IMG/VR virus record: IMGVR_UViG_3300013286_000018
Span: 1-44,094 of that record
Source: a virus
Reading direction: 5' to 3' (one strand)
DNA: 44,094 nucleotides
The translations under genes were made by a program, and so were the position numbers. Under the pieces are notes generated by a model. It worked only from the letters and a program-made list of their open reading frames with translations. It made no database searches and was not told the DNA's origin. This document shows positions 30,932 to 40,255 of this stretch, one piece after another; the stretch's first letter is position 1, and every line of letters begins with the position of its first letter.

Positions 30932-32007
30932 TGGCAATTAACCCAGAGTTAGCAAAAATTATTAATAAGATTAACAAGAAACTTGGCGCAGATACAATCG
31001 TTCTTGGAGAAGATATTAGAGACGATGTAATGTCTCGTATTACCACAGGCTCTATTGCATTTGATGTTGCTTTAGGTGGGGGTTGGCCCGTTAATCAATG
31101 GCATGAAATTGTTGGAGAAGCCTCTAACGGTAAAACCGCAATTGCTTTAAAAACTATTGCAGCAAATCAAGCAAAAAATCCAGAGTTCACCACAGTGTGG
31201 GTTGCAGCAGAACAATGGGTTCCAGAGTATGCAGAGATGTGCGGTGTTGATTTATCGCGCCTTTATGTAGTTTCAACTAATATTATGGAGGAAGCATATG
31301 AAGCGATTATTGAGTTGGTCGAAAGCAAAGCTGTTGATTGTGTTGTTATTGACTCCCTTCCTGCCTTGGTTCCTAGTGCAGAAGACGAGAAACAAATGGA
31401 AGAATTCACGGTAGGCAGAGGCGCAATGTTAACCAACAAATTTTTTCGCAAAGTAGGGATTGCTTCTAAACGCTCCCTTATTGATTATGAACGCCCATTT
31501 ATTGGCATCATGATTAATCAGTGGCGTGACAAAGTTGGAGTTATGTACGGAGACCCACGCACTACCCCAGGGGGTAAAGGCAAGGATTATGCGTTCTTTA
31601 CCCGTATTGAAATTAAGCGTGATGAATGGATTGACGCTGGAACAGGTCAAGAAAAACACCGTGTAGGTCAGACCATCAAGATTCGTACCCTTAAAAACAA
31701 ATCAGCCCCACCCTCACAGACAGCTTTTGTAGACTTTTATTTTGCCCCTGGAGGGCCTGTAGACCGTGGAAATTATGATTTTGCTAAAGAAGTAGTGGCT
31801 ATGGGAATTATTAATAAAGTCATTGTTAGAGCGGGTGCTTATTACCGTTACGACATCAATGGTGAGACTCGCCAGTGGATGGGCGCAGATGCTATGCTAG
31901 GTTCTATACGGGAAGAGTTGGACTTAAAAGAAACCTTAGAACGCGATGTACTAGACTCAATTAAAGCTGGGTCTAAGTTTGTGGCAGACGACTCCGATGA
32001 GGAGTGA
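30931..32007 (+). CDS. RecA-like recombinase
   Basis: A 358-residue protein with a RecA core: RITTGSIAFDVALGGGWPVN, WHEIVGEASNGKTA with Walker A at 62-69, Walker B-like DCVVIDSLPALVP, and MINQWRDKVGVMYGDPRTTP, GG in the L2/ATP-cap region. It lacks the long C-terminal domain of bacterial RecA but ends in an acidic tail (VADDSDEE). It catalyses strand exchange in phage recombination-dependent replication and repair. Nuclease genes follow it. Confidence 0.9.
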   Translation: MAINPELAKIINKINKKLGADTIVLGEDIRDDVMSRITTGSIAFDVALGGGWPVNQWHEIVGEASNGKTAIALKTIAANQAKNPEFTTVWVAAEQWVPEYAEMCGVDLSRLYVVSTNIMEEAYEAIIELVESKAVDCVVIDSLPALVPSAEDEKQMEEFTVGRGAMLTNKFFRKVGIASKRSLIDYERPFIGIMINQWRDKVGVMYGDPRTTPGGKGKDYAFFTRIEIKRDEWIDAGTGQEKHRVGQTIKIRTLKNKSAPPSQTAFVDFYFAPGGPVDRGNYDFAKEVVAMGIINKVIVRAGAYYRYDINGETRQWMGADAMLGSIREELDLKETLERDVLDSIKAGSKFVADDSDEE

Positions 32008-32356
32008 AGGTCAAAAACAGTCTAGGAAACACGAGGTACGACTAGCCAAAAAAGTCGATGGTAAGCGAACAGCTGCCAGCGGAGCTTTTTGGAATCGTAA
32101 AGGTGATGTCCGCAGTAGCGACCTTCTTATTGAACATAAGTGGACGGGCAAAGCCTCCTTTACTGTTAAAGCCGCAGTTCTGGAGAAAATTGTCAACGAA
32201 GCAATTCTTGATAGCCGAATGCCCGTATTAGGTATTAGTCTTAACGAGAATAATTATGTAATGCTTATTGAAGATGATTTCCTAGAGATGCGCCAAAATC
32301 TTCAGGAGTGCACTTGTCATATGAACGTTCCACCGACGCAGAGTGGTGGCACTTAG
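31997..32356 (+). CDS. Hjc-like PD-(D/E)XK nuclease
   Basis: A 119-residue protein. SRKHEVRLAKKVDGKRTAAS, GAFWNRKGDVRSSDLLIEHK, WTGKASF carries Glu13, Asp37 and Glu46-x-Lys48, the E...D...ExK layout of small resolvase-type nucleases such as Hjc. It probably cuts branched DNA made by the adjacent RecA. ATG at 31997 is preferred to the in-frame TTG at 31979; neither has a strong SD. It overlaps recA by 11 bases and WhiB by 43. Confidence 0.7.
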   Translation: MRSEGQKQSRKHEVRLAKKVDGKRTAASGAFWNRKGDVRSSDLLIEHKWTGKASFTVKAAVLEKIVNEAILDSRMPVLGISLNENNYVMLIEDDFLEMRQNLQECTCHMNVPPTQSGGT

Positions 32357-32646
32357 CTAAATGCCGTGGCATGGATACCGAATTATGGTTTCCACCGCGA
32401 GATAAAACTAAATACAAAAAGATAGCCGATAAATCAAAAGCTGTTTGTTTTGGTAAAGATGGCGCACCCGAATGCCCCGTACGATTTCAATGCTTGTTCT
32501 ACTCAGAAGAGATGGATGAACAGCACGGTATATGGGGTGGCATGAGCCACCGTGAGCGCAATGCGTTGAAAAGAAAAGCTGCTAAAGTAGGGCTTACATT
32601 AGAGGAGTGGGTGCTTAAGAATGACAGCAAAGGAAGAAAAGTTTAA
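32314..32646 (+). CDS. WhiB-family iron-sulfur transcription factor
   Basis: A 110-residue protein. Cys17, Cys45, Cys54 and Cys60 (AKCRGMD; KAVCFGKDGAPECPVRFQC) are the 4Fe-4S ligands, followed by GIWGGMSHRERNALKRK with the family's GIWGG turn and basic tail. The usual CxxC is expanded to C-x8-C. WhiB proteins bind the primary sigma factor and occur only in Actinobacteria and their phages. TTG at 32314 is chosen because AGGAG lies 5 bases upstream; GTG at 32308 overlaps that SD. It probably redirects host transcription. Confidence 0.92.
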   Translation: MSYERSTDAEWWHLAKCRGMDTELWFPPRDKTKYKKIADKSKAVCFGKDGAPECPVRFQCLFYSEEMDEQHGIWGGMSHRERNALKRKAAKVGLTLEEWVLKNDSKGRKV

Positions 32647-33508: not shown

Positions 33509-33992
33509 GGCTACGGGAGTTAGCGAAGAGATTATTGTCGTTTTAGAACGCCAAGGTTTACTGGTACGAAAAACTTTAAATATTGAAATGCCAGATTTTC
33601 CAGAAGATATTACTTTGGTAGATGACCAAGACCTGATGGTAATGGCGTCTAAGTACATGGAGAACTACAACATGATGCGTACACAGACTGCGTGTGCTCA
33701 AATAGCGGAGTTAGAGGCAGAAAACGATTACGACCTAACAGAGGCTCATGCGCTACTAGCCACATCTACAGGTAAGACCACAGAAAAAGCGGGCCTTTTA
33801 AAAGCCGCTGTACTTGCCCAAACAGATATTCAAGATAAGCTTAAAGCAAAGAATTACACGTATGCATACCGCAAGTTAATGGAGACCACGCAAGACAACA
33901 TGGAGCGCTACTACAGTTTAGTAAGCCGTGAATTAACTCGTCGTACCTCAGGTGACCGTGACCGATTGCGAGGCACTCGCTACAATGCCTAG
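33495..33992 (+). CDS. Hypothetical helical protein coupled to the exonuclease
   Basis: A 165-residue protein. ATG at 33495 has AAGGGG 7 bases upstream and lies 14 bases before the upstream stop; an ATG at 33489 is too close to that SD. The sequence has a beta start (FKLEATGVSEEIIVVLERQG) and long charged helices (ACAQIAELEAENDYDLTEAH; DKLKAKNYTYAYRKLMETTQ). No motif was recognised. Its place between two nucleases suggests an exonuclease partner. Confidence 0.55.
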   Translation: MFKLEATGVSEEIIVVLERQGLLVRKTLNIEMPDFPEDITLVDDQDLMVMASKYMENYNMMRTQTACAQIAELEAENDYDLTEAHALLATSTGKTTEKAGLLKAAVLAQTDIQDKLKAKNYTYAYRKLMETTQDNMERYYSLVSRELTRRTSGDRDRLRGTRYNA

Positions 33993-34344
33993 TCAGTCAA
34001 GAAAACATAGAGGATATCGTTCGCAAAAAGTAGTAGCTATGTATTTAGCCGAGCACGGATTCCCTTTTGCTGAAAGTACAGGGGCGGGACGCAGTGGAAC
34101 AGATATTACTGGCACTATTGGAATTGACTGGGAAGTTAAAGCCCGCAAAGATTTTTCGCCTAGCGCCACCATCAAACAGCTTAAAGACAGGCACAATGGT
34201 AAAGATTTACCCGTAGCAGTTTTGCGCCTTAACGGACAAGGAGAGGTTAGTATTACTGAATGGGTTACACTTGTGAGGTTAGAAGATTTTGTTAATTTAT
34301 TGCGAGCTGCAGGATACGGAGAATCAGATGAGGATAAAAAATGA
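33985..34344 (+). CDS. Second resolvase-like PD-(D/E)XK nuclease
   Basis: A 119-residue protein. SQSRKHRGYRSQKVVAMYLA, then STGAGRSGTDITGTIGIDWE, VKARKDFSPS gives Asp40 and Glu50-x-Lys52, the GxD...ExK core of PD-(D/E)XK nucleases. It differs in sequence from the one at 31997, so the two are not recent duplicates. It may resolve Holliday junctions or process ends. ATG at 33985 overlaps the upstream stop by 8 bases. Confidence 0.7.
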   Translation: MPSQSRKHRGYRSQKVVAMYLAEHGFPFAESTGAGRSGTDITGTIGIDWEVKARKDFSPSATIKQLKDRHNGKDLPVAVLRLNGQGEVSITEWVTLVRLEDFVNLLRAAGYGESDEDKK

Positions 34345-34544
34345 CTAAAGAATCACATAAGTTTTTAACAAATTTGCTTCAAGCCAAAGAAGAAGTTAAA
34401 CGTTTAGAAACAGAATACAGAAAAATTTGCGAATGCAATGAAAAACTTCCAGGAGTAGATAAGATATCCGATAAGTCATTTTATTATCGCAAGTTGTATA
34501 AAACTTGTTCATATCACGAAGTTAGGCTTACACGTAGTGCCTAA
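34341..34544 (+). CDS. Hypothetical short helical protein
   Basis: A 67-residue protein, mostly one charged helix (LLQAKEEVKRLETEYRKICE) followed by a polar C-terminal part with two further Cys/His residues. It overlaps the nuclease as ATGA and the FmdB-like gene by 8 bases. No family was recognised. Confidence 0.5.
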   Translation: MTKESHKFLTNLLQAKEEVKRLETEYRKICECNEKLPGVDKISDKSFYYRKLYKTCSYHEVRLTRSA

Positions 34545-34704
34545 TTACGATTTTACTTGTTTACCGTGCGATGTTACAGTTGAGAAATTTTTAGCATTTG
34601 ATGAAAACGGTCGTCCAACATGCGATAAATGCGGAGAGTTTATGAACAAAGTATTTAATTCTACACCAACACATTTTAAAGGCGGAGGGTGGGGCGGTAA
34701 ATGA
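34537..34704 (+). CDS. FmdB-family zinc-ribbon protein
   Basis: A 55-residue protein with MPNYDFTCLPCDVTVEKFLA, then PTCDKCGEFMNKVFNSTPTH and FKGGGWGGK. This matches the FmdB pattern: an N-terminal strand, two CxxC pairs (Cys8/11 and Cys29/32), a 'v.rvfs.....F.G.GW' segment and a Gly-rich end. GTG is the only suitable start and its frame runs without stop to TGA at 34702. It overlaps both neighbours. It is probably regulatory or involved in protein contacts. Confidence 0.78.
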   Translation: MPNYDFTCLPCDVTVEKFLAFDENGRPTCDKCGEFMNKVFNSTPTHFKGGGWGGK

Positions 34705-34943
34705 AGTTTGTTATTAATGATGAAAAGTGGGCAGAAGTCCTTCAAGAAGGCGTTAATGAGTACGTAGATAGTTTGCAAAATTATTACATTTATGGTGATG
34801 AAGATGTAGAAGAGCCTGAGGTTTTATCTGGGCTACCCTATTGCGGTTGCGAAACTTGTTACACCCGCGAGTTTCTTTTTTATGTTTCCCCCATCATTAT
34901 GCAAGGTCAAAAAGATGGAAAGATTGAGCTAGATGCCTCTTGA
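34701..34943 (+). CDS. Hypothetical acidic protein with Cys cluster
   Basis: An 80-residue protein. It has an acidic segment (YIYGDEDVEEPEVL) followed by GLPYCGCETCYTREF, a CxCxxC cluster. It overlaps FmdB as ATGA and the next gene by 11 bases, so it belongs to the same translational chain. Function is unknown. Confidence 0.55.
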   Translation: MKFVINDEKWAEVLQEGVNEYVDSLQNYYIYGDEDVEEPEVLSGLPYCGCETCYTREFLFYVSPIIMQGQKDGKIELDAS

Positions 34944-35115
34944 CCTTAGAGATAAAGAAGCGCCCCTTCACGTTTGCCCTTGCGGTTCTTTTTTATGGAA
35001 AGTAAAAGCCACTTTTGAAGATGGTGAAATTTCGCTTTATATGCTTGATATGGAGTGCGAATTATGTGGGACTTGGGCTACAGCGCCAACCCCAATTGAT
35101 TACCGAACCGTTTAA
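34933..35115 (+). CDS. Hypothetical zinc-ribbon miniprotein
   Basis: A 60-residue protein with two Cys pairs (HVCPCGSFLWKVKATFEDGE; MECELCGTWA), a layout typical of a small zinc ribbon with a beta hairpin between the pairs. It is the last gene of the operon before the promoter at 35117. No function can be assigned. Confidence 0.6.
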   Translation: MPLDLRDKEAPLHVCPCGSFLWKVKATFEDGEISLYMLDMECELCGTWATAPTPIDYRTV

Positions 35116-35116
35116 C

Positions 35117-35146
35117 CTGACATACACCTCTTAGTTCCCCCATAAT
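35117..35146 (+). promoter_or_regulatory. Promoter for the SpoVS-like gene
   Basis: CTGACA at 35117-35122 and CATAAT at 35141-35146 are 18 bases apart; each matches five of six consensus bases. Transcription would start near 35153 and give a leader of about 30 bases with AGAGG as SD before the ATG at 35183. Confidence 0.6.
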
Positions 35147-35178
35147 TTAAGGGTAATACTAATTCGAGCATAAGAGGT
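35126..35178 (+). repeat. 8-bp inverted repeat spanning promoter and SD
   Basis: ACCTCTTA at 35126-35133 is the exact reverse complement of TAAGAGGT at 35171-35178. The left arm lies between the -35 and -10 and the right arm contains the SD. In a read-through transcript the arms could pair and hide the SD; as DNA they could be an operator pair. Confidence 0.5.
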
Positions 35179-35182
35179 AATA

Positions 35183-35473
35183 ATGACTGACGTAGTAAAA
35201 GAAGAAGAAGAAGGCATCCTTCGCGTAGGCGCAGGAAGCAATCCACAAGCCGTAGCATCAGCAATCGCCCACAGTATCTATGAGACTCGTGGCTGCAAGA
35301 TTCGCGCTGTAGGCGCAGGAGCTGTCAATCAGGCAGTTAAGGCAATTGCAATCGCACGAGGCTACACAGCCCCACGAGGTTTAGACCTCACTTGTATTCC
35401 TGGCTTTGCAAGCATTGAAAGCCACGATGGACAGATTTCTGCCATTGTATTTGTTGTTTCAGCAGCAGGTTAA
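35183..35473 (+). CDS. spoVS: SpoVS-like protein
   Basis: A 96-residue protein with ILRVGAGSNPQAVASAIAHS, then CKIRAVGAGAVNQAVKAIAI, ARGYTAPRGLDLTCIPGFAS. This matches SpoVS almost motif for motif (K/RVgA.S.p..VAgAia......r.i.IRaIGAGAvNQAvKAiAiArgyvap.G.dL.ciPaF). SpoVS is a small Alba-like protein that affects sporulation and cell division in Firmicutes. A phage copy with its own promoter and terminated transcript may bind nucleic acid or alter host development. The last idea is inference. Confidence 0.9.
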   Translation: MTDVVKEEEEGILRVGAGSNPQAVASAIAHSIYETRGCKIRAVGAGAVNQAVKAIAIARGYTAPRGLDLTCIPGFASIESHDGQISAIVFVVSAAG

Positions 35474-35514
35474 GCAGTTATTTTGCGCTCAAATGCCTTA
35501 TCGTTATTTAACCA

Positions 35515-35526
35515 CCTTTGCAAAGG
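35515..35526 (+). promoter_or_regulatory. 12-bp perfect palindrome overlapping the SD
   Basis: CCTTTGCAAAGG is its own reverse complement. Its right half contributes the AAAGGA SD of the gene at 35534. It may be a small RNA fold that limits initiation or a regulator site; chance is possible. Confidence 0.4.
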
Positions 35527-35533
35527 AAACTAA

Positions 35534-35869
35534 ATGAAGACAAATTCTAAGAAGAACCCAGCTCCGCTGGCACCCACTTCTGCTGAGCCAAGTAACGCTA
35601 CAGGTTCAAAGCCACGCGTTGCTATGCCTGAAAAAGGCAAGCTTATGAAGAAGAAGAACACAGCAGCGGGAGACCCAACTAAGATGGCTAAGCCATCTCG
35701 TACATTTGTTAAAGCTGATGGACATCGTGCAGGCGCACGTTATGGGGTACGCGTTGGATTTCAAAAGCAGGAAGCACCAGAGGCAGGTGCCACACAAAGC
35801 AATGGTTATTTAATTCCAGCTGCCATTAACCGTAGCAAACCAAACTTTACAGCGGGTATGGCTGAATAA
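35534..35869 (+). CDS. Hypothetical basic protein
   Basis: A 111-residue Lys/Ala/Pro-rich protein, basic and low-complexity over residues 1-60 (MKTNSKKNPAPLAPTSAEPS; KGKLMKKKNTAAGDPTKMAK), with a more ordered GHRAGARYGVRVGFQKQEAP part. It lies between the SpoVS gene and a strong terminator and is probably on the same transcript. Nucleic-acid binding is possible from charge. No family was recognised. Confidence 0.6.
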   Translation: MKTNSKKNPAPLAPTSAEPSNATGSKPRVAMPEKGKLMKKKNTAAGDPTKMAKPSRTFVKADGHRAGARYGVRVGFQKQEAPEAGATQSNGYLIPAAINRSKPNFTAGMAE

Positions 35870-35880
35870 TTAGATTAATA

Positions 35881-35909
35881 AAAAACCCCCGAGAAATCGG
35901 GGGTTTTTT
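35881..35909 (+). terminator. Perfect intrinsic terminator with GAAA tetraloop
   Basis: CCCCCGA at 35886-35892 pairs with TCGGGGG at 35897-35903 around a GAAA tetraloop. A five-A run precedes it and TTTTTT (35904-35909) follows, so it can act in both directions. It ends the SpoVS unit. Confidence 0.95.
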
Positions 35910-35959: not shown

Positions 35960-36211
35960 GTGTCATTAAAAGAAGAGCTAGAGAATTTATCGCCTCGTGC
36001 AAAAACAGGCACCTATTCAAAAGGTCGTTGTGGCATAAACGAGTGGTTAAAAACGCAAACTGATGAGTTTATATTGGATTTTAGAGACCTGATTGCCTCC
36101 CCTTCATCAACTATGGAATTACACAGATTTTTACAAACAAAGTTTTCTGATTTGCCTTTCAGTTTAACAACTTTTCGTACTCATAGAAACAAGTGGTGCT
36201 CATGTCCATAA
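35960..36211 (+). CDS. Small HTH-like protein upstream of phosphoesterase
   Basis: An 83-residue GTG-start protein. SLKEELENLSPRAKTGT, then CGINEWLKTQTDEFILDFRD, and a C-terminal FSLTTFRTHRNKWCSC suggest a compact helical DNA-binding domain with a final Cys pair. Short proteins of this type precede metallophosphoesterase genes in several phages. It overlaps the next gene by 10 bases. It lacks an SD and appears leaderless. Confidence 0.6.
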   Translation: MSLKEELENLSPRAKTGTYSKGRCGINEWLKTQTDEFILDFRDLIASPSSTMELHRFLQTKFSDLPFSLTTFRTHRNKWCSCP

Positions 36212-37374
36212 AAGACGAATTTAATAAATTTATAACAGCTGGAAAAGAAGGTTCTGACAATGTTCTTAAAGATGTTCCAGAGAATTGGCGCCCCCGTTCA
36301 GAACTTGACCAGACAACAGGCGGGTTCGCTATTACTGGCCCCCGTACAGATGGAAATACTCCAGGAGCCGAAGAATTATTACGAGAAGCAAATCTTGACC
36401 CAACAGAATGGGTATTAGTAAATAGCCGTAAAGGTAGTTGGCAAAAATGGGACGGAGAATGGCTTCACTCTTGGCGCATTAATGTTATTCCAGCTTCTTC
36501 ATCAGTTCACGCTTATGATGCGCAAAAACTTATTGAAGAAATTTCCAATTGGAAACCAAAATCATCAAATGATTTTGAAGGTGACCTCACCGCTATATAT
36601 AGTTTAGGTGACACTCAGTACGGCAAAGATGATACGCCAGCTATTGTTGACCGTGTATTGCGTTCCTTTGATGAATCCGTAGACCATCATAAGTTTTTAC
36701 AAAAAAAATATAAAATTGGGCAGATTGCATTACCTCAGCTTGGTGACTGTATTGAGGGTATGACAAGCCAAAAAGGTAAAGTTATGGGCCGTCACGATAT
36801 TGGAGTAGCACAGCAAGTTCAAGTTGGTCGCCGTGTTCTTATGGCACAAATTAAAGCAATGTCGCAGCTTGCTTCAAAGATTATTGTTCCCGTAGTTCCA
36901 GGAAACCATGATGAGGTTCAACGTTTTCTTGTGGGTCGCCCAGAGGATTCATGGCAAATTGAGATTGTTCGCGCCGTAGAAGATGCGTGTATGGAAAATG
37001 ATTTTCTTAAAGACCGCGTTGAGTTTCGTTACCCAGCAAAAGATGACAGCACACTTGCTGTCAATCTAAGCGGAACTTTATACGGTATGGCTCATGGACA
37101 TCAAAAGACAGATATGGTCAAATGGTGGTCAGGTCAAGTTATGGGTAATTGCGCTGTTGCAAATGCGGATATTCTTAATGTTGGTCATCTTCACCATTAT
37201 GATGTACAAAGCATTGGTACACGTTTGTTTATCCAAAACCCAGCTATGGATAATGGTTCGGGTTGGTTTAGAGATAAATCGGGCCTTGAATCCCACCCAG
37301 GAATTGTTTCATTGGTAGTAGGTGCAGGCTTTGATGCCCGTAGAGAGTTAGTGGTGCTAGGTGGCTTTCGCTAA
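36202..37374 (+). CDS. Calcineurin-like metallophosphoesterase
   Basis: A 390-residue protein. Metal-site motifs are YSLGDTQYG (137, with Gln where the first motif usually has His), LGDCIEG (181-186), VPGNHDE (234-238), and C-terminal AHGHQK and VGHLHHYD. Residues 1-125 form a separate N-terminal domain. It may be a DNA nuclease like SbcD or a phosphodiesterase. ATG at 36202 is preferred to GTG at 36193 since both lie in the upstream gene and ATG is the stronger codon. Confidence 0.82.
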   Translation: MSIKDEFNKFITAGKEGSDNVLKDVPENWRPRSELDQTTGGFAITGPRTDGNTPGAEELLREANLDPTEWVLVNSRKGSWQKWDGEWLHSWRINVIPASSSVHAYDAQKLIEEISNWKPKSSNDFEGDLTAIYSLGDTQYGKDDTPAIVDRVLRSFDESVDHHKFLQKKYKIGQIALPQLGDCIEGMTSQKGKVMGRHDIGVAQQVQVGRRVLMAQIKAMSQLASKIIVPVVPGNHDEVQRFLVGRPEDSWQIEIVRAVEDACMENDFLKDRVEFRYPAKDDSTLAVNLSGTLYGMAHGHQKTDMVKWWSGQVMGNCAVANADILNVGHLHHYDVQSIGTRLFIQNPAMDNGSGWFRDKSGLESHPGIVSLVVGAGFDARRELVVLGGFR

Positions 37375-37389: not shown

Positions 37390-37929
37390 ATGCCAGGTCC
37401 ACATCAAAATACGCAAAATCTCGGCGCTGCTGGGATGTATGGAACCAACACTACTTATGGTGGTGGCGGTGTTCCTGTTGCGCGTTCTGAACTTGACTTC
37501 CTTCGTTTAGGTGTTGGTCGTCAACCCTCTGCAGAGTATCCTGACGGCTACCTAGGAACAATTCGCACGCGTCGTGATGACCGTGGTCGTCCAGGTTCAA
37601 CTTCAGAAAATGTTTTAGATTCACTTAAAGTTCGCATCACACAACGTGGTTATCAACGCGGTGTGCACAAAGGTGAGCGCATTGATGCTGCGGGCTATTA
37701 CTATCCAGAAGGATTAGATAACACTCGCGGAATTCGCCGCCAAATGCAAGGTGTTCGTGATGGCAATGTCATTATGACAAAGAAGAATTCAGATAATCAA
37801 AAACTTGCACCAGCTCCGCACTTACCTAATGATGGTAAAGCAGGGCCTGCTGCAAAGAGTGACGCACCTATGGGTGTTAATATGAACAGAGCTAAGAGAC
37901 TCAGTTCCCTATCACCAAATTGGAAATAA
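37390..37929 (+). CDS. Hypothetical Gly/Arg-rich protein
   Basis: A 179-residue hydrophilic protein starting MPGPHQNTQNLGAAGMYGTN, with GYLGTIRTRRDDRGRPGSTS and QRGYQRGVHKGERIDAAGYY, and a basic disordered C-terminus. It has few hydrophobic residues and no Cys. It is the first gene after a perfect -10 and starts the array of small genes. It could be a minor virion or DNA-condensing protein, but nothing in the sequence proves it. Confidence 0.6.
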   Translation: MPGPHQNTQNLGAAGMYGTNTTYGGGGVPVARSELDFLRLGVGRQPSAEYPDGYLGTIRTRRDDRGRPGSTSENVLDSLKVRITQRGYQRGVHKGERIDAAGYYYPEGLDNTRGIRRQMQGVRDGNVIMTKKNSDNQKLAPAPHLPNDGKAGPAAKSDAPMGVNMNRAKRLSSLSPNWK

Positions 37930-38286
37930 ATGTCAGGCAGAATGTCAGACGGTGTTTACTCCCGCAAACCGTGGCAAGCACCACCTGAGGCTGCCTACCC
38001 ACCTCAAGCATATATTGGGCCCTTTGCGTCCAACCAAGAGCGTTTACTTAGCCAATCATTAGCAGCTAACATGATGACAGGTGCAGAACTACAAGAATAT
38101 GTGCGCCCCCCACTACCTCAAGTCAAACTATTCCCAGAACGCTATGGTTACACCCAGACTGAGATTAGTATTGAAGACATAATTGATTTGCCTGGTCGCG
38201 CTCAACAGCGTGTAGAGTCTGACTTTAGTAACACTCCAAATACTCAGGAAAGCACAAGCACTAATTCACTAGGAGGTACCATCTAA
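37930..38286 (+). CDS. Hypothetical Pro-rich protein
   Basis: A 118-residue protein starting MSGRMSDGVYSRKPWQAPPE, with several Pro-rich stretches (PPEAAYPPQAYIGP; RPPLPQVKLFPERYG) and a Ser/Thr/Asn-rich end. The ATG follows the upstream stop directly. It is probably extended or disordered. No function is recognised. Confidence 0.55.
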   Translation: MSGRMSDGVYSRKPWQAPPEAAYPPQAYIGPFASNQERLLSQSLAANMMTGAELQEYVRPPLPQVKLFPERYGYTQTEISIEDIIDLPGRAQQRVESDFSNTPNTQESTSTNSLGGTI

Positions 38287-38462
38287 TGGGACGCAATAAC
38301 GAAGACTTTCAAGACGGAAAAGATACAAATGCTGCTTTTAGTGGAATACTTAAAGCCAGTTATCCAGAAGACATTCCTGGATTTGAAGGTACGACGGACT
38401 CACTTAATAGTTTAGTTAATATCCGAAAAAACACAGCTAATAAGAACAAAAAAAATAACTAA
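38286..38462 (+). CDS. Hypothetical 58-residue protein
   Basis: A short hydrophilic protein starting MGRNNEDFQDGKDTNAAFSG, with ASYPEDIPGFEGTTDSLN and a Lys/Asn-rich end. Its ATG overlaps the upstream stop (TAATG) and its stop overlaps the next start in the same way, which supports it as a gene despite its length. Function is unknown. Confidence 0.6.
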   Translation: MGRNNEDFQDGKDTNAAFSGILKASYPEDIPGFEGTTDSLNSLVNIRKNTANKNKKNN

Positions 38463-38695
38463 TGCCTATCAACGACCCAGGTTTATTTACAGATAGCACA
38501 GGCGAAGGCATGGCTGGAGCTGAAGATGTTAAATTGGGCACCCAGCGTGACCTTAAAAAGACCTATTACAATGGTTCTAAGCCTTGTATTGAATGTGGAT
38601 TGATGCTAAACCCAGTACAATCATTACATACAGACACCTGCAGCGGATGTACCCGTCGCAAGCAGTCTAAGCTACTTAAAGGACGGATGGCATAA
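38462..38695 (+). CDS. Zinc-finger miniprotein of the small-gene array
   Basis: A 77-residue protein with KPCIECGLMLNPVQSLHTDT, CSGCTRRKQSKLLKGR, a CxxC-x(16)-CxxC zinc site followed by a basic tail suited to nucleic-acid binding. The N-terminal 35 residues are polar. TAATG overlaps link it to both neighbours. Confidence 0.65.
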   Translation: MPINDPGLFTDSTGEGMAGAEDVKLGTQRDLKKTYYNGSKPCIECGLMLNPVQSLHTDTCSGCTRRKQSKLLKGRMA

Positions 38696-38901
38696 TGACC
38701 GTAAATAACTCACGTTCACAGAACGAGTCACTCAACGAGGGCGCAACAGATGGTAAGTACCGTAAGCGCCGTCCAAATACTGAGGTTATTCCAGGACTTG
38801 GAGACCAGACAGTAGTTCAGAACCGTGCAGATTTGCACCCATACATGAACTACGGATTTATTAACTCTGAAGAGCCTTCAAAGGTAAACCCAGGTAAGTA
38901 G
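38695..38901 (+). CDS. Hypothetical 68-residue protein
   Basis: A hydrophilic protein: SRSQNESLNEGATDGKYRKR, RPNTEVIPGLGDQTVVQNRA, then DLHPYMNYGFIN. No Cys. It is coupled to the zinc-finger gene by a one-base overlap. The sequence is typical of disordered virion-associated or host-interaction peptides, but its role is unknown. Confidence 0.55.
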   Translation: MTVNNSRSQNESLNEGATDGKYRKRRPNTEVIPGLGDQTVVQNRADLHPYMNYGFINSEEPSKVNPGK

Positions 38902-38903
38902 TC

Positions 38904-39116
38904 ATGGGAAAAGCTAAGCGCCAACAAAAGTACACATCTGCACAAGGCAAACTTCAGTCAGCAACTAGCGACGTACTACGAGCAGGGTTACGCCGTCAAC
39001 GTACTGGTACAGAAGGTCGTGCGGAAGCGCTATCAAATTTTTCTGATGCTTCAAACACTTTTAATCAAGCTTCAAATAAAGAACAGAACTTACGCGTTAA
39101 TAAAGGTAATATGTAA
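38904..39116 (+). CDS. Hypothetical basic 70-residue protein
   Basis: Starts MGKAKRQQKYTSAQGKLQSA, with LRAGLRRQRTGTEGRAEALS and a Ser/Asn-rich end. Net positive charge and helix-friendly composition suggest nucleic-acid or membrane contacts. It begins two bases after the upstream stop. No family was recognised. Confidence 0.55.
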   Translation: MGKAKRQQKYTSAQGKLQSATSDVLRAGLRRQRTGTEGRAEALSNFSDASNTFNQASNKEQNLRVNKGNM

Positions 39117-39118
39117 TT

Positions 39119-39391
39119 ATGAATCCAACTTCATCACAGTTTCCTATTAGCCATGTAAAAATGCATTCTGACCTATCAAAGAGCCCAGAAACATACGAAC
39201 GCGTTAAACTTCGTGGTGCAAAGCACGGAAAAACAAAGCTTGATGCATTTGGTTCGTCTAAAGAATCTGGTTATAAGGGCAAGTATGGTATTGAACCACA
39301 AGCAGAAATTGGCGTAGCTGACGAGAACCGTAACGGTACTTATATTATTAGTGATAATCCAGATAAGAATCCAACGAGGTTTAAGCAATGA
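39119..39391 (+). CDS. Hypothetical 90-residue protein
   Basis: Starts MNPTSSQFPISHVKMHSDLS, with a Lys/Gly-rich middle (GAKHGKTKLDAFGSSKESGY) and ADENRNGTYIISDNPDKNPT near the end. Polar throughout and without Cys. It overlaps the next gene as ATGA. Function is unknown. Confidence 0.55.
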   Translation: MNPTSSQFPISHVKMHSDLSKSPETYERVKLRGAKHGKTKLDAFGSSKESGYKGKYGIEPQAEIGVADENRNGTYIISDNPDKNPTRFKQ

Positions 39392-39579
39392 ACCCACAAG
39401 ATAGAAGCGGTGATGCACGCCGTCAAGCTAATTATGAAAAGACTTTAGGCAAATATGCTGATGAACTTATGAACCCTAAAAAATATGACCACGAGATGAG
39501 CAAAGACGAAGCCATGCGTAATGATGAGTCTATGTACGCTACAGAAGGTCAGATTCCAGAGAGCTGGACAGAGAAGTAA
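39388..39579 (+). CDS. Hypothetical 63-residue charged protein
   Basis: Starts MNPQDRSGDARRQANYEKTL, continues GKYADELMNPKKYDHEMSKD and ends SWTEK. It is helical and strongly charged. Both ends overlap neighbouring genes by one to four bases. It begins with the same MNP as its upstream neighbour but is otherwise different. Function is unknown. Confidence 0.55.
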   Translation: MNPQDRSGDARRQANYEKTLGKYADELMNPKKYDHEMSKDEAMRNDESMYATEGQIPESWTEK

Positions 39580-39773
39580 TGAAGCCTACAGAGCCACAGT
39601 TTCCAGATATTAATAAGGAAACTGACGTACCAGAAGGCTTTGGCTATATGACCCCTGAGACAGAGAACGAAATAGCTGAAGCTGAAGAGCGCAAGCGCAC
39701 TCAAATACCTTATTTATCACGTAACGCAGAGGATATTTTAAACTCTAAGCGTTCACGTGGAGAACGTCTATAA
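39579..39773 (+). CDS. Hypothetical 64-residue acidic protein
   Basis: Starts MKPTEPQFPDINKETDVPEG, then FGYMTPETENEIAEAEERKR and SRNAEDILNSKRSRGERL. An acidic helix precedes a basic end. TAATG overlap with the upstream gene. No recognisable family. Confidence 0.55.
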   Translation: MKPTEPQFPDINKETDVPEGFGYMTPETENEIAEAEERKRTQIPYLSRNAEDILNSKRSRGERL

Positions 39774-39784
39774 AAGGATAAGTA

Positions 39785-40255
39785 ATGGCTGATACTCCTG
39801 AGGACAGAGGTCCCGATAGTATGCGCGTTGTTAAATACAACCCAAAAAACCCTATTCATGAGGGATTAATGCGCTCTAGAATAAGAGAAGACAATGTACT
39901 TGGTCAATCAACCAGTACTAATCCTAATATTCAACTTCCAAATTACAATGACAAGAAACCAGTTATTAAAATGCCAGTTAAACTTGGCATGGAAAAAGAA
40001 CCAGAGTTGTCAGAAAAATACTATGAACTTATACAAAACAAGCCGTATGTGCTTCCAGAAGAGCATCAAATAAAACTACCTAAGCCTAAGCCTGTTATTA
40101 AAACTGATGCTCCTTCAATGAAAGAGGTTAAAAACGTTGGAGACATCTACAAAAAAACCGATACCGTAGCTTCCAAGAAAAACCGAGCAGAAGAACAAGC
40201 TGCAATTCAAAAGAAAATTGCAGCTCGTTTGGCGAAAAATCGTAAGCCCAAGTAA
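39785..40255 (+). CDS. Hypothetical Pro/Lys-rich protein
   Basis: A 156-residue protein with an SD (AAAGGA) before the ATG. Residues 1-70 are polar. A stretch of repeated Lys-Pro elements follows (KKPVIKMPVKLG; IKLPKPKPVIKTDAPS), then a basic helix (KKNRAEEQAAIQKKIAARLA). It looks extended or disordered with a nucleic-acid-binding C-terminus. It ends before a likely separate promoter. Confidence 0.6.
   Translation: MADTPEDRGPDSMRVVKYNPKNPIHEGLMRSRIREDNVLGQSTSTNPNIQLPNYNDKKPVIKMPVKLGMEKEPELSEKYYELIQNKPYVLPEEHQIKLPKPKPVIKTDAPSMKEVKNVGDIYKKTDTVASKKNRAEEQAAIQKKIAARLAKNRKPK

Follow-up and report, generated by a model that had tools for sequence, protein, structure and literature searches.

The 44,094-bp IMG/VR record IMGVR_UViG_3300013286_000018, referred to here in its entirety as the window, is a partial sequence of a tailed phage that carries, among others, a tail sheath gene, a DNA polymerase I-like gene, a whiB gene and recombination genes (Table 1). 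Close relatives have contigs of up to 95-98 kb, and the window is therefore probably about half a genome. The nearest relatives of its DNA polymerase and tail sheath were found in the Streptomyces phages BRock, LuckySocke, and GiJojo (39-41%), and both these best backbone matches and the synteny of a gene block place the window in the lineage of BRock-type actinophages. WhiB is the customary marker of actinophages (PMC6802176, PMC10202952), and its presence in the window bears out the actinobacterial signature that the initial annotation had proposed. The GC content of 41% fits the 42% quoted for the Nanopelagicales (PMC6802176). The host of this phage is taken to be actinobacterial, an assignment made at the level of the phylum. 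The close relatives are termed aquatic groups below, since from the IMG sample numbers we take them to be mainly of freshwater origin.

Table 1. Features at and around the spoVS unit of the window
Feature	Position	Strand	Basis or remarks
WhiB-like protein, actinobacterial-host marker	32308..32646	+	PHROG 472; in 80/80 loci of close relatives
RusA-like Holliday-junction resolvase	33952/33982..34344	+	PHROG 244
Small Cys-rich zinc-ribbon-like ORF, 60 aa	34933..35115	+	Just 5' of the unit; conserved in the window's clade only
Promoter-like element CTGACA-18-CATAAT	35117..35146	+	10/12 match; first gene starts 36 nt on
spoVS homologue of 96 aa; PF04232, actinophage subfamily	35183..35473	+	Pfam, PHROG, PDB, tree, AlphaFold model
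Basic, probably disordered partner, 111 aa, pI 10.5	35534..35869	+	Homologues behind spoVS throughout the lineage (BRock gp49)
Intrinsic-terminator hairpin AAAACCCCCGA-GAAA-TCGGGGGTTTT, 11-bp stem, GAAA loop, then TTCTTT	35882..35907	+	Sequence; recurrence in relatives
Metallophosphoesterase/exonuclease	36193..37374	+	PHROG 284; near spoVS in 28/68 clade loci
o179, conserved basic protein, 179 aa	37390..37929	+	3' of the unit; same order in BRock-type phages
o118, 118 aa, same conserved block	37930..38286	+	BRock gp47
o68, 68 aa, same conserved block	38695..38901	+	BRock gp45

A promoter, spoVS, the gene of a basic protein, and a terminator make up a unit that is conserved across the window's clade. 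Consensus matches of promoter quality occur at chance level over 20 kb (36 found versus 40.6 expected), so that the match upstream of spoVS is by itself no proof. A -10-like hexamer is located 27-51 nt 5' of the spoVS start in 51 of 58 distinct relatives, which are not independent of each other, against 6.3 expected from shuffled sequences, and on these grounds the proposal that spoVS has its own promoter was upheld. The same search in a second viral set, namely, the relatives found with the BRock SpoVS, revealed no enrichment (8 of 50 versus 8.4 expected), and the sigma-70-like box is therefore not general. BRock-type phages possess a terminator followed by a TATAAT/TACAAT-like box 5' of spoVS, and a second aquatic clade (loci L210-L272) was observed to have a conserved non-sigma70 motif, AGGTGGGC ... 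AAAGGACTAC, 5' of the gene. Downstream of the second gene, 33 of 59 distinct relatives have a hairpin with a T tail that passes a strict terminator test, as compared to approximately none among shuffles, and many of the relatives that fail this test still have a GC-rich hairpin at the same position; a terminator between spoVS and the partner gene was seen in none of 76 loci. The GAAA loop is not universal among the terminators of the relatives, and the claim that the unit ends, with one basic protein, at a GAAA-loop terminator is correct for the window. The 5' region of the unit also contains a perfect 8-bp inverted repeat, ACCTCTTA/TAAGAGGT, at 35126-35133 and 35171-35178, the right arm of which spans the ribosome-binding site of spoVS. 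This 5'-UTR hairpin was rejected as a conserved control element, as, apart from the window, only three near relatives (L002, L003, and L006) have it.

The unit marks the border of the recombination genes with a block of small proteins, most of which are basic, and whiB is about 2.9 kb away from spoVS. In the window's clade the resolvase does not adjoin spoVS, and four small ORFs intervene. In the window's clade, the 60-residue zinc-ribbon-like one among these ORFs occurs at 70 of 81 distinct loci, and in the second set at 1 of 61. A cluster of very small ORFs that contain Cys (34537-35115) thus separates the resolvase from spoVS in this clade; one of them resembles Zn_ribbon_8 with 30.9 bits, below the cut-off of 34.4. 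The window contains two different Holliday-junction-resolvase-like genes less than 2 kb apart, one at 31979-32356 (PHROG 2002) and the RusA-like gene of PHROG 244. The partner proteins are strongly basic, with a median pI of 10.3, and single-sequence folding modelled the partner without structure. Further 3', at 37390-40255, about nine small, hydrophilic, and mostly basic proteins are encoded for which no convincing family matches were obtained. Three of them keep their order down to the BRock-type phages, and a role in the virion or in DNA condensation is possible for the proteins of this run.

It is beyond reasonable doubt that the first gene of the unit encodes SpoVS. The protein matches PF04232 with 97.6 bits (cut-off of 24; E 3.6e-28) over the full domain, with residues 12-92 corresponding to profile positions 2-82/83, and also matches PHROG 35646, "sporulation protein," and, in the PDB, T. 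thermophilus SpoVS (2eh1). Its AlphaFold (AF2) model has a pLDDT of 89.5 and was found to be closest in fold to a chain of 9a7h, an integrative crosslinking model of YunD-SpoVS (TM 0.94), followed by 2EH1/2EK0 with TM values of 0.90-0.91 (rmsd of 1.0 for 2EH1); Z scores with solved SpoVS structures are 17.5-17.8. The description of the protein as a clear SpoVS homologue was therefore confirmed by profile and fold, and the same Pfam, PHROG, PDB, and model data rule out a generic Alba-like protein that has no relation to SpoVS. Cellular SpoVS, such as those of B. subtilis and T. thermophilus (2EH1/2EK0), share with the window copy the full-length family match, the fold, and a GAGxVNQAxKAIAIA core, whereas the window copy belongs to a separate phage clade, has an acidic N-terminal tail, and is 43-58% identical to them. 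Of the 157 phage copies of the clade, 154 have Gly in place of the Lys of the cellular SSKS motif, which is present in 85 of 98 cellular SpoVS.

SpoVS has been assigned to the Alba superfamily (PMC11621453). The model of the window protein indeed has the predicted fold of this superfamily, with matches to Alba of TM ~0.65 and a Foldseek E of 1.8e-4 that are weaker than those to SpoVS, and its fold neighbours comprise Alba, IF3-C, and other nucleic-acid binders. The Z scores of 10-11 with Alba (10.6 to 1H0X and 11.3 to 1UDV) represent a match of the fold alone. Window SpoVS appears to share its fold with the archaeal DNA/RNA-binding Alba proteins (1H0X, 2BKY) but is only ~16-18% identical to them and near-neutral. 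DNA binding by Alba is carried by the residues K16, K17, R42, and R44. In a MAFFT sequence alignment with verified Sso10b, as distinct from a structural superposition, these positions are occupied by A, G, V, and A in window SpoVS, so that neither the Lys16/Lys17 pair nor the Arg42/Arg44 pair of Alba proper is kept. The net charge of SpoVS is ~0 in the window's clade and +2 in the second viral set. The initial annotation had proposed nucleoid binding from an Alba-like fold; the fold stands, whereas the binding had been deduced from the fold only, and the missing DNA-binding residues and the charge of ~0 speak against it. We do not commit to an Alba-like chromatin binding of phage SpoVS.

At least 590 IMG/VR contigs encode SpoVS relatives. 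Of the best 80 of these loci, all encode WhiB, 79 the zinc-ribbon-like ORF, and 75 the basic partner. When the count is confined to distinct loci of that clade to which the window belongs and in which the sequence extends far enough, the partner (75/75), o179 (63/63), and WhiB (78/78) are always present; as all loci were gathered through spoVS, these presence counts refer to the members of the lineage that carry the gene, and members without it are invisible to them. In the second viral set, the partner is found behind spoVS in 43 of 57 cases, and a RusA-like resolvase is located directly 5' of spoVS in 35 of 56, usually 45-60 nt away. In BRock, LuckySocke, and GiJojo, a RuvC-like resolvase precedes SpoVS, which is followed, after one or two small ORFs, by a homologue of the partner (gp49 in BRock; HMM E 2e-7) and then by homologues of o179, o118, and o68. 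The SpoVS proteins of these three phages (gp51, gp174, and gp164, respectively) belong to the same clade as that of the window, have the partner, o179, o118, and o68 as neighbours, and possess their own transcription start region; they differ from the window in the RuvC-like resolvase directly 5' of spoVS, in lacking the zinc-ribbon cluster, and in that no WhiB is encoded within the 3 kb examined upstream of spoVS. The place directly 5' of spoVS is hence taken by a RuvC-like resolvase in Streptomyces phages (L083, 2401-2892) and by a RusA-like one in aquatic phages (L210-L272).

Median conservation is 86% for SpoVS, 74% for WhiB, and 58% for the partner, the SpoVS value being the highest among the widely shared genes checked nearby. 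Window SpoVS and the SpoVS of the Streptomyces phages match at 44-46%, and the values for polymerase and sheath given above are in line with this figure, which is consistent with joint inheritance. Judged from sequence comparison, spoVS appears to be an old core gene that is passed on vertically in a large lineage of actinophages with contractile tails, comprising the aquatic groups and the Streptomyces BRock group. With the SpoVS of a Lysinibacillus phage as query, no relatives were found among the viral contigs searched.

The phylogeny of SpoVS including the phage copies, a step that the initial annotation had suggested, was established from 68 sequences. The actinophage SpoVS all lie on one side of a branch with 100/100 support and the cellular SpoVS all on the other, and in this tree, which is unrooted, is based on 93 columns, and has many open forks and some long branches, window SpoVS does not nest within the cellular group. 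The cellular side also holds the copies of Lysinibacillus, Stenotrophomonas, Bacillus, and gut phages. Neither of two characteristics of a host-derived auxiliary gene, namely, cellular nesting in the tree and patchiness within the lineage as judged from the loci found through spoVS, was observed. The restriction of the family to Firmicutes, which the initial annotation had implied, does not hold, since SpoVS scored above the cut-off in 126 of 396 sampled Actinomycetota genomes; in one class of this phylum, which holds the genome of a Coriobacteriia bacterium, it was present in 89 of 99. A further class, called Streptomyces-like here because one of its genomes (9.2 Mb) has six SsgA genes, was found to contain SpoVS in only 1 of 394 genomes. 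This sole copy is located on a contig of 110,447 bp, the size of BRock-type phages, on which 9 out of 26 tested phage proteins of the window have homologues and a RuvC-like protein and the partner are encoded as well, and it is therefore phage-borne. The contig (L348, G699:C44) corresponds to a phage of the BRock lineage or a phage-plasmid that was assembled within a Streptomyces-like genome record.

The reading that we favour, albeit with less than even confidence, is that phage SpoVS fulfills a role in nucleic-acid biology that serves the phage itself, probably together with the basic partner. The gene is the first of its own short transcription unit, and its product, a small protein of predicted Alba-type fold, probably forms a homodimer, by analogy with its relatives. 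Its target would be the phage's own nucleic acid, either phage RNA or DNA intermediates that arise from the recombination genes nearby, and it would probably act together with the basic, disordered partner rather than as a switch of host sporulation. The family, the fold prediction, the conserved unit and neighbourhood, the separate clade, and the near-absence of SpoVS from the Streptomyces-like class are directly supported; the nucleic-acid target, the dimer, the partnership, and the timing are inferred. This reading draws on the family and fold, the conserved unit, the gene order shared with the Streptomyces phages, the polymerase and sheath matches, the separate clade, the high conservation of SpoVS, and the location of spoVS directly behind two different kinds of Holliday-junction resolvase, RusA-like and RuvC-like, in related lineages. 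The missing Alba DNA-binding residues, Alba scores that reflect the fold alone, the near-neutral charge of SpoVS, a partner modelled as disordered from a single sequence, and a resolvase that does not adjoin the gene in the window's own clade argue against it. That SpoVS and the basic partner form a two-protein nucleic-acid machine, nucleoid-like or an RNA chaperone, with an Alba-type fold and ancestral to the lineage, is conceivable but rather doubtful.

Modulation of host development, as suggested initially, would imply a gene that was borrowed from, or is aimed at, a host pathway. We consider it unlikely that phage SpoVS takes over host division or development, notably septation, possibly in concert with the WhiB of the phage and despite a host that has no SpoVS. 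The slow polar septum formation of B. subtilis and B. thuringiensis spoVS mutants (PMC8510167), the altered host septation caused by the WhiB-like protein of phage TM4, as cited in a passage of PMC6172770, the presence of WhiB on every locus, and the PHROGs category of the SpoVS family, "moron, auxiliary metabolic gene and host takeover," all agree with such a function; it is weakened by the core status of the gene in the lineage, its own unit, its phage-only partner, its distance from whiB, its separation from cellular SpoVS in the tree, and the absence of SpoVS from the Streptomyces-like host class, in which the single case is on a phage-like contig. If the host class of the window phage has SpoVS, the argument from host absence is restricted to the Streptomyces branch. 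A related proposal, that the gene is an auxiliary one acquired either from the host or from a Firmicute that forms spores, is largely contradicted for the actinophage lineage and thus highly improbable: virome papers class spoVS as a sporulation auxiliary metabolic gene (AMG) (PMC6172770, PMC8940887) and the Lysinibacillus and Stenotrophomonas phage copies do nest among cellular SpoVS, but the actinophage copies are united in a single clade to which no cellular copy belongs, and synteny links spoVS to the phage backbone.

SpoVS and the basic protein might also coat or condense phage DNA or be located in the head, along with the block of small proteins. The small, mostly basic proteins co-conserved 3' of the unit in all lineages would be in accordance with this, and strong expression would be suited by a promoter and terminator of the unit's own; given that Pfam and PHROGs provide no structural annotation for these proteins and that SpoVS is not basic in the window's clade, such a virion or packaging function seems improbable. 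Very unlikely, finally, is that SpoVS is the regulatory partner of the metallophosphoesterase, a nucleotide or nucleic-acid phosphatase, as has been suggested for SpoVS and YunD of B. subtilis. The top fold match is the YunD-SpoVS model (PDB 9a7h), and the metallophosphoesterase gene is located 0.7 kb 3' of spoVS; it is, however, near spoVS at just 28 of 68 and 14 of 48 loci, and none was seen near spoVS in the Streptomyces phages. The metallophosphoesterase was rejected as an obligate partner on these counts.

The overall interpretation made initially stood as far as the SpoVS homologue, the actinophage, the unit of its own, and the Alba-like fold are concerned, and not for the restriction to Firmicutes, the modulation of host development, and nucleoid binding. 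The window protein belongs to a known family, within which it is part of a separate phage subfamily whose genetic setting is conserved. Virome studies have taken spoVS as a sign of viral control over host sporulation (PMC6172770, PMC8940887). In the actinophage lineage, this AMG reading is weakened by a spoVS that is placed in the phage backbone next to a phage-only partner, and by a class of Streptomyces hosts that is nearly devoid of SpoVS. If the two-protein nucleic-acid machine proves true, counts of "sporulation" AMGs in viromes that are based on spoVS would in part count a core phage gene. BRock, LuckySocke, and GiJojo, which grow on Streptomyces, provide a culturable system for the biochemical function of SpoVS.
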